From Dissophora ornata (taxonomy: Eukaryota > Mortierellomycota > Mortierellomycetes > Mortierellales > Mortierellaceae), in assembly GCA_025201705.1 (NCBI GenBank), contig MU617002.1, forward strand, positions 1 through 27,528: a stretch of 27,528 nucleotides of DNA, read 5' to 3'. Positions within the stretch are counted from its first letter, which is position 1. Each line of letters starts with the position of its first letter. The notes under the pieces were generated by a model, which was not told the origin of the DNA, did not search any database, and worked only from the letters and a program-made list of their open reading frames with translations. Shown piece after piece: positions 2,094 through 12,410 of the stretch. A program made the position numbers and the translations under genes.

Positions 2094-2908
2094 ATGTCCG
2101 ATATTCAAAATTTGCAGGCCTACGGTATGTGTCCAAGGCTGAGGGATATTTTTACATCAACCTGACCCACACCAATAAAGCGAGAGATGACTCACACCTT
2201 CTTGCATTCGTTTACTTGCATGACATTAGATCCTTTTGCCGATCTTGGTGATTCTGGCGATACTGTCGAACAAAAGGACTACATCCGTACGTGGTTTGTC
2301 AGCTCTTTCAAGCCCTCCCTATTCCCGTTTGCATATCTTTCACATCTTTTCACATCTCGGATACGACAAAAAAAGTGATGATAGCTTTTACTTGAACCGT
2401 AGCAGGACCATGGCAGACCGTTTTGGTCTGCTACCTGCCCTGTCGGTAGTATATTATATATACGCCTATGTCATAGTTACACTGATCCTTTGTCCCTCAC
2501 CGACCGTGCCTCCCCCCCTCCCCCCCCCCCACCCCCTCCTATCAACCTGCTCCAGACCAGTCCAGACCGATGTGTTGGACAAAAAAAGTGTTTGGTGGTC
2601 TCATGACTAACAGTCTTTTTTTGTCCTACTTTTTGCAATTTCGAATATGTGTGTGTACAGATATTCGTATCCAACAGCGTAACGGACGCAAGACCCTGAC
2701 GACCATCCAGGGACTGCCCAAGACCTTTGACCAGAAGCGTATGCTCAAGATCTTCAAGAAGGACTTTGCTTGCAACGGTACCCTTGTGGACGATGAAGAG
2801 TTGGGTTCTGTCATTCAGCTCCAAGGTGATCAGCGTACCAAGGTCTTGACTCTTTTGACAGTTGAGGGTGGTATTGACAAGAAGCAGATCAAGATCCACG
2901 GTTTCTAA
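2094..2908 (+). CDS. SUI1: Translation initiation factor eIF1 (Sui1)
   Basis: eIF1 binds the 40S subunit near the P site and enforces accurate AUG selection in the scanning pre-initiation complex. Three exons (2094-2124, 2230-2286, 2661-2908) join in frame to 111 residues, the usual length for the family (about 108-113). The N-terminal tail contains DPFADLGD. The SUI1 fold covers about residue 27 onward: HIRIQQRNGRKTLTTIQGL, then the conserved KKDFACNGT segment and the closing VEGGIDKKQIKIHGF. Exon 1 has only 31 nt. Intron 2 is 374 nt, much longer than the neighbours' introns, and hosts a box C/D snoRNA candidate. There is no plausible alternative assignment. Confidence 0.98.
2365..2494 (+). 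ncRNA. Intronic box C/D snoRNA candidate, predicted snR63-type guide for LSU rRNA helix 69
   Basis: Inside eIF1 intron 2 there is a perfect C box GTGATGA (2375-2381) and a D box CTGA (2482-2485). They are bracketed by a 6-bp terminal stem, GACAAA (2365-2370) with TTTGTC (2489-2494). The 11 nt GTCATAGTTAC (2470-2480), one base before the D box, are perfectly complementary to GUAACUAUGAC, a near-universal segment of helix 69 of large-subunit rRNA. By the D+5 rule the methylated base is the second A of GUAAC. From memory this equals yeast Am2256, guided by snR63. An internal hairpin, GCAGACC-GTTTT-GGTCTGC (2413-2431), lies between the boxes. At about 130 nt it is long for the class, and I see no clear C'/D' pair. 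Host intron processing would release it from a highly expressed translation gene, a common arrangement. Confidence 0.75.
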
Positions 2909-5249: not shown

Positions 5250-5679
5250 ATGCTCCCATCCCCTCTCCCCTTTCCACCTCTGGATCTTCATGGGTTCTTC
5301 TTGCTCCTACCCCTAATTCTTCTCGTTGTACAGCAACCTCATCCACTCCTTGCGACCCTTTCCGCCCCACAACAGATTCTAAACGACGCTGGGAGCAGTA
5401 AAACACGTCGATCGCGTCTGTTGTGCCATTCTCCTAAAACTGCTTTTAATAGGACATGCCTCGTTTCCCGTTTACTCTCTAGTCAATTCAAGAAGTCCTT
5501 TTCTGTAGCTTACAACTAGCACATATATTAAATTATTTATCCACGATTCCTTTGACAGAGAAAGTCAGAGGCTGTAGGCGGCTACAGGGCACTCGTAGCC
5601 TCGGTAGAGACGACTTATTTACATCTGGGGCGTGGCATCATCGGCTATGACTTCAATCGAATCAGACCTCCTGCCATTA

Positions 5680-6526
5680 TCATCCGCTCCTTCTATCGCA
5701 TGCGGGCCTAGATGGGGGTCCCTCCAAGAGAAGCAACGGTGCTGCAGCGACACCTCGGTGAGATTGCATTTGGGACATGAGCGCATTGATCTGGTGTTGT
5801 TGCAGCGCAATAATTTCCCGACCTCTCTCCATGGCAACATTCATGTCTGCCACAAGCTCTTCATGCTGCCGTTTCTGTTGCGCCATGTCTTCTTCGTGTC
5901 ACCGTTGCAGCCTTTCTAGGTTGTCTTTCTGTTCCTGGTCAGGATCCTCCTTTTCTTTCTCACAGCTTTTCTGTTGCGCCATGTCGTCTTCGTGTTGCCG
6001 TTGCAGCTTTTCCAGCTTGTCTTTCTGTTCCTGCTCACGAACCTCCTTTTCCTTCTCGCGGCTTTTCTTTTTTTCATTCTCATGATCTTTCTCAAGCTTC
6101 TTCTGTCTCTGTGGAATCCCCAAGAGAGATACAGGAGGAGGATGTTAGAACCAATATTGGTATCGTTTGCGGTTCCACGACTCTTAGAACTTCCACGAGA
6201 TTTACCTCATTGGTCTTGTAATTGTTAACCTCGACAGCCTCAACGACTTTAGCCGCCACAAGTCCAATCGCAACGAATCCAACTGCTATCCGGATAATTG
6301 CTAGGCTCGGTGTGGCTGCCAGATCTCAAAGGGTTGCCTCCATGACAATTAGAGCCCCAAAAATTACAGAAAGAAGCAAAATGACTACAGAAAGAAGCGA
6401 AATGACTATAAGTAGAGCCAAAATGATTACAAACCGTGCCACAAATGAAATCCCAACGACTACAATTAGAACCCCAACAGCTACGGACAATGTTTCGATA
6501 CGTCTGAATAACAACGAAGAGTCCAT
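5680..6526 (-). pseudogene. Type 2 membrane-anchored coiled-coil gene, unit A (broken)
   Basis: This is the homologue of the intact gene at 10550-11344. Exon 1 (6526-6206) starts MDSSLLFRR and encodes a long hydrophobic Val/Ile/Leu stretch. It is interrupted by an in-frame TGA at 6328-6326, after which the paralogous frame resumes (ATPSLAIIRIAVGFVAIG). The shared GTAAAT donor and the CCACAG acceptor are present. Exon 2 (from 6108) encodes a Lys/Glu-rich coiled coil that meets a second TGA at 5901-5899, where the sister copy has CAA (Gln). Beyond it the frame continues to RSG and a stop at 5680. The old C-terminal reading frame ending VIADDATPQM persists out of frame to 5619. A 50-nt intron could hide the first stop, but the second has no credible bypass. 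Confidence 0.65.
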
Positions 6527-6926
6527 CCTGCAAAAAGCTGTATTTCTCCTAACGCTGTGAATTGTGAATGGGTAAGAGATACGTGGGTAGGGAGTGACTG
6601 ATATTCTACCCAGGGATGTAGAGAAAAGCACAAGCAAAAAGCAAAAAGCAAAACTGGGCTTACAACCAAAAATACAAGGAGCGACCGTAAAAAGGCGAAG
6701 TGCCATCTGTCAATAGCGCTCGGGCTACCTTGCATGAATCTGCCTGATTCGCATAATAGAAAACATGTATCTCAGCAATGTGACCCTGAAAACGGTGGTG
6801 ACTAATGAATAGGACCTGGATCCCTTTGTCATGCATCGCCAGTATGACTCATTCAGGGCTCGCGGCTTTATTTCAATCTTCCCGCCTGTCCCTCAAGTTC
6901 TGTCCTCTACTTCTTTGACTCTCATT

Positions 6927-7541
6927 CTACTCGTCGGGAGATATGTGACCAAGAATACTATCGGTTGACCCGGCATCAAGGACAGCTCTGCAAATTAGGA
7001 GCTGACGCCTCAAAGGAAAGGACCGAATTTGGCCCTGCCATCTGTGCCAAATGCATATCAGTCTCATTACGTAGAAGCTTCGAATCCATTTCCCGCTTGT
7101 TCCATGAGCTCCTTCCGTGCAAAGTTGCATCTCCCTCCGATGCTCATCGCGCCGCTGCTTTGCTTCTTGCAGCTCCTGCTCAGCGCGATTTCTTCGTTCA
7201 AGTCGTTCCTTCTATAGACGCTCTTCATGTTTTTCAAGCTGAACCAGTCGACCAATCGCAAACGTTTCATTTGTTCATGTTCCTTGCGTTGCAACTGCTC
7301 AATCCTCTTTTGTCGCTCTTGGTAATTCCATTGAATTATTGGACTACAGATGTTCAAGCCATAAAAAGGGGTGTACCATAAAGCGGATTGCGAATTAAAG
7401 ATTTCGTTCACCGCTGCCGAAGAGCGTGGCATTCATCTTCACGCGACATGAAATGAAAGTATTACACAGATGTTGTAGACGACAATTTGCCACCACCAAT
7501 GCGAAACCCAATACATGTACGAGGTGTTCTGAGAATGACAT
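6927..7541 (-). pseudogene. Type 1 membrane-anchored coiled-coil gene, unit A (broken)
   Basis: This is the homologue of the intact gene at 11775-12410. Exon 1 (ATG at 7541) encodes a short hydrophobic N-terminus beginning MSFSEHLVHVLGFAL and is identical to that of unit B. The coiled-coil exon is ruined: a short insertion near 7250 shifts the frame (the motif CGATTGGT is partly duplicated), a TAG replaces CAG soon after, and a further shift occurs near 7120. The expected acceptor CAG at the exon 2 border is missing. The C-terminal signature DSILGHISPDE is still readable up to the stop at 6927. It has decayed beyond expression as a family-like protein. Confidence 0.65.
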
Positions 7542-8071
7542 GGCGAAATGAATATTCCTGGGTTCGAATATTGGAAGAGAGTCGTTGCAGGCGGAAGCGT
7601 ATTTATTATGGCAAAAAAAAAATTGGGCTACTCAACGGAAGAAATAAAAAAAATTGCATAGCATTGACAAATCTCGAAAGTGGAAATAGGAAAGATCCCA
7701 TCCTCTCTCCCTTTTCCACCTCTGGATCTTCAAGGACTCTCTCGCTTCTGCTCCAACCCAACCATCTTCTCGTTGAACAGCAACCTCACCCACTCCTTGT
7801 GACCATTTCCACCAAAGGACAGATTCTAAACGGCGCTGGGAGCAGTAAAACACGTCGATCGCGTCCACTGTGCCATTCTCGTAAACCTGCTTTTAATACG
7901 ACACGCCTCGTTTCCCGTTCATTTTCTAGTCAATTCAAGAAGTCTATTTTTGTAGCTTACAACAAGCACATTTATTTATTTATTGATCCACGATTCCTTT
8001 GAAACGGGAAGTCAGAGGCTGCTGGCGGCTACAGGGCACTCGTAGCCTCGGTAGAGACGACTTAGTTACAT

Positions 8072-8862
8072 CTAGGGCGTGGCATCATCGGCTATGACGT
8101 TAATTGAACCAGACTTCTTGCCATTATCATGCGCTCCTTCTACTGTATGCGTGCTCGGATGGGGTCCCTCCAAGAGAGAGCTTTCCGGCAGCGGCGCTGC
8201 AGCGATACCTTGGTGAGATTGCATTTGGTGCATGAGTGCATTAATCTGGCGTTGTTGCAGCGCAATAGTTTCACGAAAGTCCAAAAATTCTCGAGCTGCT
8301 TCTTGAAGATGCTCCATATTCTCCTGCCTCATTTGTTCCTGGCCTCTCTCGATGGCAGCATTCGTCTCATTCACAAGCTCTTCATGCTGCCATTTCCGTC
8401 GCTCCGTGTCTTCTTCGTGTTGCCGTTGCAGCCTTTCCATGTTGTCTTTCTGTTCACGCTCACGAAACCTCCCTTTCCGTCTTAAAAACTTGTACAAGCT
8501 TCTCGCGGCGTTTCCTTTCATTCTCAAAGTCTTCCTCAAGCATCGCGCTGCGTTTCCTTTCATTCTCATAGTCTTCCTCAAGCATCGCGCTGCGTTCCCT
8601 TTCATTCTTATAATCTTTCTCAAGATTATTTTTCTGTGGAATCCCCGAGAGAGATATAGGATTTTAGAACCAATATTGGTATCGTTTGCGGTTCCACGGC
8701 TCTTCGAACTTCCACGACATTTACCTCATTGATAAACTCGACAGCCGCAACGATAACCGCAACGATTACAATCGTACCGATTCCAACCGCAACGAGTCCA
8801 ACTACTACCGGGATAATTGATGGGGGTGGTGTGACAACCTGAGCCCTAAATGGAGATCGCAT
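8072..8862 (-). pseudogene. Type 2 membrane-anchored coiled-coil gene, unit B (frameshifted)
   Basis: Exon 1 (8862-8725, 46 codons) encodes MRSPFRAQ and then a Val/Ile/Gly-rich transmembrane stretch ending EFINE at the conserved GTAAAT donor. Exon 2 starts at 8633 and reads a natural coiled coil containing three copies of a 14-residue unit of the type EDYENERKRSAMLE (42-bp tandem repeats, about 8525-8612). Near 8463-8470 an extra base (T on the coding strand, compared with unit A) shifts the frame. The downstream coiled coil (REREQKDNMERLQRQHEED) therefore continues in another frame to ADDATP and the stop at 8072. A 183-codon open frame does span the exon, but its first third is the wrong frame of the repeats. 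A sequencing error is the main alternative. Confidence 0.6.
8525..8612 (-). repeat. 42-bp tandem repeat (two-heptad coiled-coil unit)
   Basis: Two near-perfect 42-bp copies plus a diverged third encode 14-residue units, exactly two heptads. The periodicity matches coiled-coil growth by in-frame slippage. It is found only in the unit B type 2 gene. Confidence 0.8.
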
Positions 8863-9303
8863 CCAGCACGTCTGTGTTTCTCCTAACGCTGTGAATTGTG
8901 AATGGGCAAGAGATACGTGGGTAGGGAGTGACAAATATTTTACTCAGGGATGCGGAGAAAAGCACAAACGAAGCAAAGCCGGGCATATAACCGAAAACAC
9001 AAGGACCGACCGTAAAAAGGCGAAGTGCCATCTGTCAACAGAGCTCGAGTCACCTCGCCTATTCTTGCATGAATTAATCTGCATGGGTCGCATAATATGT
9101 TTGAACACGTTTATTTTGGTAGCTTGGTGGAGGCCTGTCGGCTTATTTTTTCATCAAGAAAAACATGTATCTCAGTAATGCGACCCTAGAAACGATGGTG
9201 ATAATGAGTAAGACCGATTCCTCTGTCATCCATCGCCAGTATGACTCATCCAGGGCTCGCGGATGTATTTCGCTCGTCCCGTCTGTCCCTCAAGCTCTGT
9301 CCT

Positions 9304-9962
9304 CTACTTCTTGACTCTCACTACGTCGGCAGATATGTGACCAAGGATACTATCAGTTGACCCGGCATCGAGAACAGCTCTGCAATTAAGAGTTGACGCC
9401 TCAAGGAAAGGACCGAGTTTGACCCTGCAATGCGACCATCTGCTCGAGAGCTTCTGTCATCTGTGCCAAATGCACATCAGTCTCATTACGTAGAAGCTTC
9501 GAAGTCATTTCCCGCTTTTCCGCCGCTTGTTCCATGAACTCCTTCCATGCAAGCTGCATTTCCCTCAGATGCTCGTCGTGCCGCTGCTTTGCTTCTTGTA
9601 GCTCCAGCTCAGCGCGATTTTTGCGTTCAAGTCATTCCTCCTGTAGACGCTTTTCATATTTCTCAAGTTGAACCAGTCGCAAGCGTTTCATTTGTTCATG
9701 TTCCTTGCGTTGCAACTGCTCAATCCTCTTTTGTCGCTCTTGTTAATTCCATTGAATTATTGGACTACAGATGTTCAAGCCATAAAAAGGGGTGTACCAT
9801 AAAGCGGATTGCGAATTAAAGATTTCGTTCACCGCTGCCGAAGAGCGTGGCATTCATCTTCACGCGACATGAAATGAAAGTATTACACAGATGTTGTAGA
9901 CGACAATTTGCCACCACCAATGCGAAACCCAATACATGTACGAGGTGTTCTGAGAATGACAT
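9304..9962 (-). pseudogene. Type 1 membrane-anchored coiled-coil gene, unit B (broken)
   Basis: Exon 1 (from ATG 9962) encodes the short hydrophobic MSFSEHLVHVLGFALVVA segment. The exon 2 acceptor seen in unit C (GAACAG) reads GAACAT here. The coiled coil (KRIEQLQRKEHEQMKRLRL) is interrupted by TGA where unit A has CGA and unit C has CAA. It then continues (LERKNRAELELQEAKQRHDEH) to another stop near 9400, and the conserved tail is altered to GHISADVV. Several independent lesions make expression as a full protein unlikely. Confidence 0.65.
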
Positions 9963-10549
9963 GGCGAAATGAATATTCCTGGGTTCGAATATTGGAAGAG
10001 AGTTGTTGCAGGCGGAAGCGTATTTATTATGGCAAAAAAAAAAAATTGGGCTACTCAACGGAAGAAATAAAAAAAATTGCATAGCATTGACAAATCTCGA
10101 AAGTGGAAATAGGAAAGATCCCATCCTCTCTCCCTTTTCCACCTCTGGATCTTCAAGGACTCTCTCGCTTCTGCTCCGACCCCACCTTCTTCTCGTTGAA
10201 CAGCAACCTCACCCACTCCTTGTGACCCTTTCCACCCAAGGACAGATTCTAAACGGCGCTGGGAGCAGTAAAACACGTCGATCGCGTCCACTGTGCCATT
10301 CTCGTAAACCTGCTTTTAATAGGACACGCCTCGTTTCCCGTTCATTTTCTAGTCAATTCAAGAAGTCCATTTCTGTAGCTTACAACAAGCACATTTATTT
10401 ATTTATTTATCCACGATTCCTTTGAAACGGGAAGTCAGAGGCTGCTGGCGGCTACAGGGCACTCGTAGCCTCGGTAGAGACGACTTATTTACATCTGAGG
10501 CGTGGCATCATCGGCTATGACTTCAATCGAATCAGACCTCCTGCCATTA

Positions 10550-11344
10550 TCATCCGCTCCTTCTATCGTATGCGGGCCTAGATGGAGGTCCCTCCAAGAG
10601 AGAGCTTTCCAGCAGCGGCGCTGCAGCGATACCTTGGTGAGATTGCATTTGGTACATGAGTGTATTAATCTGGTGCTGAAGGCCCAAGAATTCTTGAGCT
10701 GCTCTTTGAAGATGCCCCCTATTCTCCAGCCTCATTTGTTCCTGGGCGCTCTCGAAGGCAATGTTCATTTCAGTTACAAACGTTTCATGCTCCCATTTCT
10801 GTCGCTCAATGTCCTTTTCATATTGCAGTTGCATCATTCCCAGATGGCTTTGCTGTTCCTGCTTATGAACTCGCAGCTTTTCCTCAAGGTCTTTTCGCTC
10901 CTTCTCATGGTCTTGTCGCTCCTTCTCACGGCTTTGAACTTCCTTCTTAAGATCTTGCTCAATGTTCTTGCGGATTTTCTTTACCTCTTCAAGATCTTGC
11001 GCAACCTTCTTCTGCCTCTGTAAGAAAGATACAGGATGTTAAGATGTTTGGATTTCTTATAGAATCAATATTGGTGCCGTTTGCGGTTCCACGACTCTTC
11101 GAACTTCCACGAGATTTACCTCATTGATTTTGGCAACAACAACGGCTCCAACCACAACGACCCCAACCGCAACGACTGCAACCGTAGCTACTCCAGCTAC
11201 TACCGGGGTAATTGTTAGGGCCGGTGTGGCAACTAGAGCTCTAGCGGCTATTTGCCTGCTACAGTGATTGGCTACAATTATAACCCCAGCAGCTGCAACC
11301 AATTTTTCAGGTTTGATAAGTTCGGGTGAAGACAAAGAGTCCAT
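10550..11344 (-). CDS. Type 2 membrane-anchored coiled-coil protein, unit C (intact)
   Basis: The family is not recognised. Two exons (11344-11120, 11017-10550) join in phase 0 to 230 residues. Exon 1 begins MDSLSSPELIKPEK and holds one moderately hydrophobic stretch (about 17-25) and a strong Val/Ala/Gly-rich transmembrane segment (about 45-71), ending AKINE. Exon 2 starts RQKKVAQDLEEVKKIRKN and is a continuous charged coiled coil to about residue 195. Gln-rich heptads follow (HQINTLMYQMQSHQG) and a short tail ending DRRSG. In unit B the tail is in another frame and ends VIADDATP; that frame also survives here, out of frame, down to about 10493. The type 1 gene lies 430 bp upstream. A Lys/Glu coiled coil on a membrane anchor suggests a scaffold or tether, but no function can be assigned. 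Confidence 0.75.
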
Positions 11345-11774
11345 CCTGCAAAGCTGTGTTTCTCCTAACGTTGTGAATTGTGAATAGGTAAGAGATATGT
11401 GGGTAGGGAGTGACAAATATTCTACTCTGGGATGCGGAGAAAAGCACAAACAAAAGCAAAACTGGGATTATAACCGAATACACGAGGAGCGACCGTAAAA
11501 AGGCGAAGTGCCATCTGTTAATAGCCCTCGACTATTCTTGCATCGAATTTTGAGCATGAATTTGCATGAATCTGCAGGAGTTGAAACACTTGATCATAAT
11601 AATTGTTTGCACATTTAAATGCCGTTTGGTATCTTGGCGGAGACTTGTCTTATTTTTTTGTGAGGAAAATATGTATCTCAGCAATGCGACGAAGATGATG
11701 ATTGAGTATCGATCCCTGTGTCATGCATCGCTAGTGTGACTCCTTCAGGGTTCGCGGTTGTATTTTCCTGACAA

Positions 11775-12410
11775 TTACTCGTCAGGAGAGACGTGACCTT
11801 GGATGCTGTCACTTGATCCGGCGATGGAACCAACAGCAGCTAATGTTTGGATGTTGGACCGAGTTTGACCCAGAGCCTCTGCCATCTGTGCCAAATGAAT
11901 ATCAGCCTCATTACGCAGAAACTTAGAAGCCATTTCCCGCTTTTCCACCGCTTGTTCGATAAACTCCTTCCGCTCAAGCTGCATTTTCCTCCGATGCTCA
12001 TCGTGCCGCTGCTTTGCTTCTTGCAGCTCCTGCTCAGCACGATTTTTGCGTTCAAGTTGTTCCTCCTGTAGACGCTTTTCATGTTTTTCAAGTTTTTCAA
12101 GTTGAACCAGTCGCAAACGTTCTATTTCTTCATGTTCCTTGCGTTCCAACTGCTCAATCCGCTTTTGTTGCTCTTGGTCTTCCTTTGGTAATTCCGTAGA
12201 ATTATTGGACTTTTGCCGTACAAGCTGTTCATGTCATTAAAAAGGGGGTACCATAAAGCGGATTGCGATTTTAGCGATTTAGTTCATTGCAAATATTCGC
12301 TGCCGAAGAGCTTAGCATTCATCATCACGCGACATGAATGAAAGCATTACCCAAATATTGTAAATGACAAATGCCACCAATACGAAACATATGCGTTTTG
12401 AGTAGGGCAT
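11775..12410 (-). CDS. Type 1 membrane-anchored coiled-coil protein, unit C (intact)
   Basis: Two exons (12410-12351, 12224-11775) join in phase 0 to 169 residues. Exon 1 is only 20 codons: MPYSKR, then a hydrophobic run (about 7-20) that could be a signal anchor or the core of a short signal peptide. The intron has a GTAATG donor, a TAATGAC branch-like motif and a GAACAG acceptor. Exon 2 starts LVRQKSNNSTELPKEDQ and is then a long Glu/Arg/Lys coiled coil (about 37-125). A helix with AEALGQTRSNIQ and a polar tail SSDSIQGHVSPDE follow. The start was chosen because it yields the hydrophobic exon found in all three units. The protein is unrelated in sequence to type 2 but has the same exon plan. 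The family and role are unknown. Confidence 0.72.

Follow-up and report, generated by a model that had tools for sequence, protein, structure and literature searches.

We found that the second intron of an eIF1 gene very probably encodes a functional counterpart of yeast snR63 and human SNORD46/U46, namely a box C/D small nucleolar RNA (snoRNA) predicted to direct methylation in helix 69 (H69) of the large subunit (LSU) rRNA. The gene lies in a stretch of DNA of 27,528 bp, hereafter the window, which is contig C441 of a fragmented assembly (31.4 Mb, 968 contigs). An initial annotation had proposed an snR63-type guide in this intron for the equivalent of yeast Am2256, and this proposal is the best reading of the present data, on the basis of the boxes, the guide, the target, and conservation between paralogs. 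We observed the boxes and the guide, their position, and the sequence of the target, and we saw that the element is selectively conserved between two eIF1 genes that diverged long ago. This kind of RNA is ordinary, known, and widespread; what is noteworthy is the eIF1 host and the retention of a second copy.

Host gene and predicted snoRNA

The features of the host gene and of the predicted snoRNA, in window coordinates, are as follows.

2094-2908, + strand: host gene eIF1 (SUI1), exons 2094-2124, 2230-2286 and 2661-2908
2125-2229, + strand: eIF1 intron 1, 105 nt
2287-2660, + strand: eIF1 intron 2, the predicted snoRNA carrier, GTACGT...ACAG, 374 nt
2365-2370, + strand: terminal stem, 5' strand, GACAAA; base-paired to 2489-2494 when either the element or the whole intron is folded at minimum energy
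2375-2381, + strand: C box, GTGATGA; same bases in the paralog
2402-2438, + strand: internal hairpin, GCAGG...GTTTT...CCTGC; part of a 23-pair, four-helix structure
2449-2463, + strand: second, small hairpin, GTATAT/ATATAC; six of six pairs form in both paralogs
2470-2480, + strand: guide element with the sequence GTCATAGTTAC, antisense to GUAACUAUGAC of LSU H69
2482-2485, + strand: D box, CTGA, one spacer base after the guide; T at 2477 lies 5 nt upstream
2489-2494, + strand: terminal stem, 3' strand, TTTGTC; partner of 2365-2370

Translation of the three exons of the spliced eIF1 model gave a protein of 111 amino acids, which matched Pfam SUI1 in a profile search (E 1.6e-25); its best protein matches were eIF-1 of Mortierellaceae, with that of Mortierella sp. 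AD094 at the top (97% identity), which most likely places the organism in or close to this family. Intron 2 had been described as unusually long, as expected of a snoRNA carrier, and it is long beside intron 1 of the same gene (374 nt vs 105 nt). The distance from the D box to the 3' splice site is 175 nt in the window eIF1 and 124 nt in a paralog described below. A branch-like CTAAC lies 50 nt upstream of the 3' splice site in the window copy, and the paralog intron has several branch candidates, among them CTAAT 33 nt upstream of its 3' splice site. In the window copy, the likely branch site GACTAAC (2605-2611) is flanked by a perfect 12-bp inverted repeat, GGACAAAAAAAG/CTTTTTTTGTCC (2577-2588 and 2615-2626). 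The 5' arm of this repeat resembles 2365-2377, the bases just upstream of the C box, so the 5' stem strand of the snoRNA could pair with the 3' arm of the repeat instead; this alternative pairing was absent from the minimum-energy fold of the whole intron.

Elsewhere in the window, at 5302-12176, a unit of approximately 2.42 kb occurs two to three times in tandem (7251-7550 and 9672-9971 are 99% identical, 7613-7912 and 10036-10335 are 98% identical, and the other listed copies are 63-95% identical). The one open reading frame tested in this stretch, 8075-8623 on the minus strand, matched nothing in Pfam at E 0.01.

The C box, the D box, the 6-bp terminal stem, and the 11-nt guide one base before the D box, all of which had been claimed for 2365-2494, are present there. 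The element has the sequence features of a box C/D RNA, namely an RUGAUGA C box followed by a CUGA D box with a terminal stem joining both, and its 11-nt antisense stretch agrees with the length (approximately 10 nt or more) and the place (next to D or D') of box C/D guides. The C box and the D box span 111 nt in the window copy. The element revealed neither a C'/D' pair nor a second guide, and downstream of the C box, up to the guide, no 8-, 9- or 10-nt stretch was antisense to the 350-nt LSU fragment used as the target sequence.

The predicted fold was more stable than those of shuffled sequences in both the window copy (z −3.69) and the paralog copy (z −4.07), and a strong inner hairpin and a smaller hairpin form in both. 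Across the two paralog sequences, 97.8% of the cells of the 23-pair, four-helix structure were paired and no pair was changed on both sides; covariation support for the fold was absent from this comparison of two sequences. No pair of the 2449-2463 hairpin varies between the two copies. An alternative hairpin has one pair changed on both sides (U-A to A-U), to which we give no weight because 253 of 500 shuffles reach the same. The minimum-energy folds also pair much of the guide internally.

Stable hairpins conserved between paralogs, together with the inverted repeat around the likely branch site of the window copy, would also suit a structured element of the intron with a controlling role in the splicing or expression of eIF1, its likeness to boxes and guide being secondary. 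We regard this as highly improbable, because it leaves unexplained an unchanged 17-nt module equal to that of SNORD46 (see below), the correct register relative to the D box, and the perfect C box; moreover, the inverted repeat was not found in the paralog eIF1 sequence. A role in cis in addition to the guide role is possible.

Guide, rRNA target and predicted pathway

The initial annotation had also claimed complementarity of the guide to H69 and selection of the second A of GUAAC by the D+5 rule, and both claims hold in the assembly's own sequence. The target was read from a 350-nt LSU piece, not from intact rDNA (C549:15885-16234; Rfam LSU_rRNA_eukarya, 279.6 bits, model positions 1920-2341 of 3401). 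This fragment contains the H69 sequence GTAACTATGAC exactly, and the 11 nt of the guide are complementary to its H69 segment. T2477, the fifth base upstream of the D box, faces the second A of GUAAC, which is the pairing that marks the snR63/U46 group. In yeast numbering, we take this A to be A2256.

The LSU fragment (5686-6035 of stretch L013) was the only gathering-level Rfam match in the surrounding 9.9 kb. A second H69-like site, with one mismatch to the 21-base H69 pattern, was found at G000:C189:27368-27388. The fragment and this site are either dispersed rDNA pieces or assembly fragments.

Box C/D snoRNAs are stable small RNAs to which Nop1/fibrillarin, Nop56, Nop58, and Snu13 bind. Intronic snoRNAs are generally transcribed with their host, spliced out, debranched, and trimmed to the snoRNP. 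We infer transcription, processing, and target methylation along the same lines for the present element: it would be transcribed together with eIF1, after which intron 2 would be spliced out and debranched, and the debranched intron would be trimmed to a snoRNP. The 11-nt element of this snoRNP may then pair with H69 of the LSU rRNA, which would position fibrillarin for 2'-O-methylation of the second A of GUAAC, the equivalent of yeast A2256, in bridge B2a.

In yeast, Am2256 has been assigned to snR63, and deletion of snR63 cut the Am peak of the fragment by one third, which the authors presented as validation of the site (PMC5199042, in excerpt). A2256 belongs to the intersubunit bridge B2a and makes contact with the decoding adenines (excerpt of PMC8674143), and an excerpt of PMC9418376, citing earlier work, relates the lack of its methylation to lower stop-codon readthrough.

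Chance tests and genome-wide searches

The guide 11-mer occurs once in the window, compared with a mean of 0.01 in 100 shuffles. We defined a C-D pair as RTGATGA with CTGA 40-260 nt downstream and searched both strands of the window; in one of the six pairs found, an 11-nt stretch antisense to the LSU fragment lay 0-2 nt ahead of the D box. The exact guide and D-box pattern was present at two places in the assembly, namely intron 2 of the window eIF1 and the corresponding intron of another eIF1 gene. Given that there is no third exact site, eIF1 appears to be the sole host in the assembly, within the limits of its fragmentation. When up to two mismatches were allowed, three further matches appeared, vs seven for the reversed control pattern.

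In outside sequence collections, the 17-nt module occurred at three loci in genome contigs and three in viral contigs, and none of these six loci had a C box within 260 nt upstream. When the eIF1 protein was compared with the viral contigs, 17 stretches matched a pattern, none of them coding for a relative. Short motifs do arise randomly, as these six loci without a nearby upstream C box illustrate, and the boxes and the 11-mer of the window could in principle have come together by chance. However, a C-D pair with guide was reproduced in none of 300 dinucleotide-shuffled windows, despite a mean of 11.5 C-D pairs per shuffle, and conservation in the paralog would go unexplained. A chance arrangement is barely conceivable, and the comparison of paralogs refutes it for practical purposes.

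Comparison of the two eIF1 genes

The whole assembly contained one other copy of the snoRNA element (contig C786, 87% identity, E 6.6e-33), and this copy occupies the second intron, which has the same position, of the other eIF1 gene. The proteins encoded by the two genes are identical at 94 of 111 residues, and silent sites are far diverged, with an identity of 55% at third codon positions and of 45% (17/38) at fourfold-degenerate sites. By comparison, the C-to-D segment is 88% identical (96/109), with the C box, guide, spacer, and D box unchanged. The terminal stem differs, being GACAAA/TTTGTC in the window copy and an A-run/T-run in the paralog.

Intron 2 outside the element showed identities of 0.636 before and 0.573 after it, both inside the spread of 100 shuffles (mean 0.615 and maximum 0.714 for the part before, 0.563 and 0.681 for the part after), and the 400-nt flanks of the genes were also within the shuffle range (upstream 0.520, downstream 0.626). 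The identity of intron 1 (59/85, 0.694) was slightly above the maximum of 100 shuffles (0.688), indicating that noncoding divergence between the paralogs is incomplete in places. When the two copies of intron 2 were compared by BLASTN, the C-D block gave E 3e-37 and the next match 0.20. With the C-to-D segment kept and the rest of intron 2 diverged, the conserved block is the snoRNA and essentially nothing else. Loss of the boxes and guide while the intron still aligns had been named beforehand as the outcome that would speak against the guide; the reverse was seen in this one paralog pair, and the evidence for conservation is a single comparison of paralogs within one genome.

A minus-strand gene for CSTF2-hinge (cleavage stimulation factor subunit 2) lies upstream of each eIF1, head to head (672-1349 in the window and 1344-1871 in L003). 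Its presence beside both copies indicates that a segment was duplicated. In addition, a protein search listed two eIF1 proteins in several species of Mortierellaceae, so an early origin of the duplication within the family is possible.

The element could instead be a decayed snR63-type copy that is no longer made, with the working gene elsewhere. The Rfam scores, which fall under the cut-off (see below), would fit such decay, and in a fragmented assembly of 968 contigs a working copy could be missing. Nevertheless, boxes and guide are perfect in both eIF1 copies despite the divergence of silent sites and of the remaining intron 2 sequence, and the 31.4 Mb held no further exact guide and D-box match, with three approximate matches vs seven for the reversed control. 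A decayed copy is accordingly very unlikely. Under the preferred reading, an intron-embedded guide snoRNA, the element is an island that has outlasted a gene duplication while the intron around it evolved freely.

Rfam matches and class assignment

No Rfam match in the window reached the gathering cut-off, the score threshold set by the curators. SNORD46 matched the window element at 15 bits (gathering score 40). snR63 matched the paralog intron with the full model aligned (E 0.081), also at 15 bits (gathering score 50); the snR63 model was absent among the matches listed for the window copy and among those listed for the paralog in a shorter search, whose listing omitted one lower-scoring match from a shared clan. 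As both scores are under the gathering cut-offs of RF01259 and RF00218, we assign the element by its guide, boxes, and position, and file it in neither Rfam family. The 17-nt guide and D-box module (2469-2485, TGTCATAGTTACACTGA) equals the SNORD46 consensus at model positions 82-98 in 17 of 17 bases.

Families of the C/D-box type made up five of the seven weak Rfam matches of the window element, 10 of the 12 of the paralog element, and five of the six of the whole paralog intron. Boxes alone can yield weak matches to C/D families, and it is the guide module that carries the weight. We judged the weak matches to mir-1270, ZEB2_AS1_3, mir-15_2 and PYLIS_3 in the window, and to DnaX, mir-2755 and HOXB13-AS1_1 in the paralog, to be due to chance. 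The same judgment was made for weak matches to the C/D families snoR29, SNORD41, sR17, SNORD79, SNORD73, snoU31b, snoR101 and SNORD49, which are without the guide module. The predicted snoRNA would extend an ancient rRNA methylation guide, missed by Rfam gathering thresholds, to a Mortierellaceae-like genome.

Choice of host gene

Departure of eIF1 from the 40S P site precedes the joining of the 60S subunit with H69, and pseudouridines 2258 and 2260 are located in H69. On start-codon recognition, eIF1 must leave the P site (PMC4425011, in excerpt), and NOG2 introns in fungi carry snR191, which is responsible for pseudouridines 2258 and 2260 (excerpt of PMC8476143). It could be proposed that guides aimed at H69 are selectively housed in genes whose products act at the H69 interface, which would tie methylation capacity to the output of an initiation factor; eIF1 would then be a non-arbitrary host, with an H69/B2a guide retained in both of its duplicates. 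We consider this proposal unlikely. A NOG2-like gene is present in the assembly (Pfam NGP1NT), and no RNA, including snR191, was detected in the 5-kb stretch around it (Rfam, E up to 2), which argues against a link to the H69 interface unless the models miss snR191. A paper on eIF1 (PMC3434475) mentions neither H69 nor bridge B2a. Mobility of snoRNAs, or their constrained drift among broadly expressed genes, has been described (excerpt of PMC3511168), and such drift explains the eIF1 host without any role of the H69 interface. The relocation into this intron that the initial annotation proposed would imply a direction of movement, and the family is intronic in other organisms as well (see below).

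Among the literature matches listed, in titles and the first parts of abstracts, there was no eIF1-hosted snR63; the fungal snoRNAome of Canzler et al. 2018, which could already include this family for Mortierella, is outside this scope. If confirmed, eIF1 would be a further host for a snoRNA family that is hosted by RPS8 in vertebrates, and would add one more case to the movement of snoRNAs between genes of broad expression (PMC3511168, in excerpt). The snoRNA in the eIF1 intron alone opens no long-standing question.

Comparison with known systems

Yeast snR63 (RF01259), which shares clan CL00061 with SNORD46, selects the same target A by the D+5 rule, but its Rfam model has 255 positions compared with a C-to-D length of 111 nt in the window snoRNA. 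The yeast snR63 gene is independently transcribed. Similarities to DdR4 of Dictyostelium, to snoR442, and to GlsR7 of Giardia, all far under the gathering scores, may be a sign of a widespread guide module: the models of DdR4 and snoR442, which align weakly to the paralog, end in UCAUAGUUAC-U-CUGA, with U for A as the spacer, and GlsR7 (Rfam) matches 2471-2485 of the window.

Vertebrate SNORD46/U46 (RF00218) has an identical 17-nt module of guide, spacer, and D box, although the Rfam alignment spans just 17 of 104 positions. It likewise lies within an intron of a gene belonging to the translation machinery, the host being RPS8 instead of the eIF1 of the window. Excerpts of the respective papers place human SNORD46 in RPS8 (PMC5025248) and chicken U40/U46, with an 11-nt guide, in introns 2 and 3 of RPS8 (PMC2653536). 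Among fungi, CD33 of Neurospora crassa is an intronic snoRNA of 102 nt with a D-box guide for 26S-Am2218, and appears in a table next to snR63 and U46 (PMC2780460, in excerpt). Its guide is 13 bp long compared with 11 in the window snoRNA, and both are intronic fungal RNAs. Thus, as far as these excerpts go, the snR63/U46 family is intronic in Neurospora and vertebrates as well.
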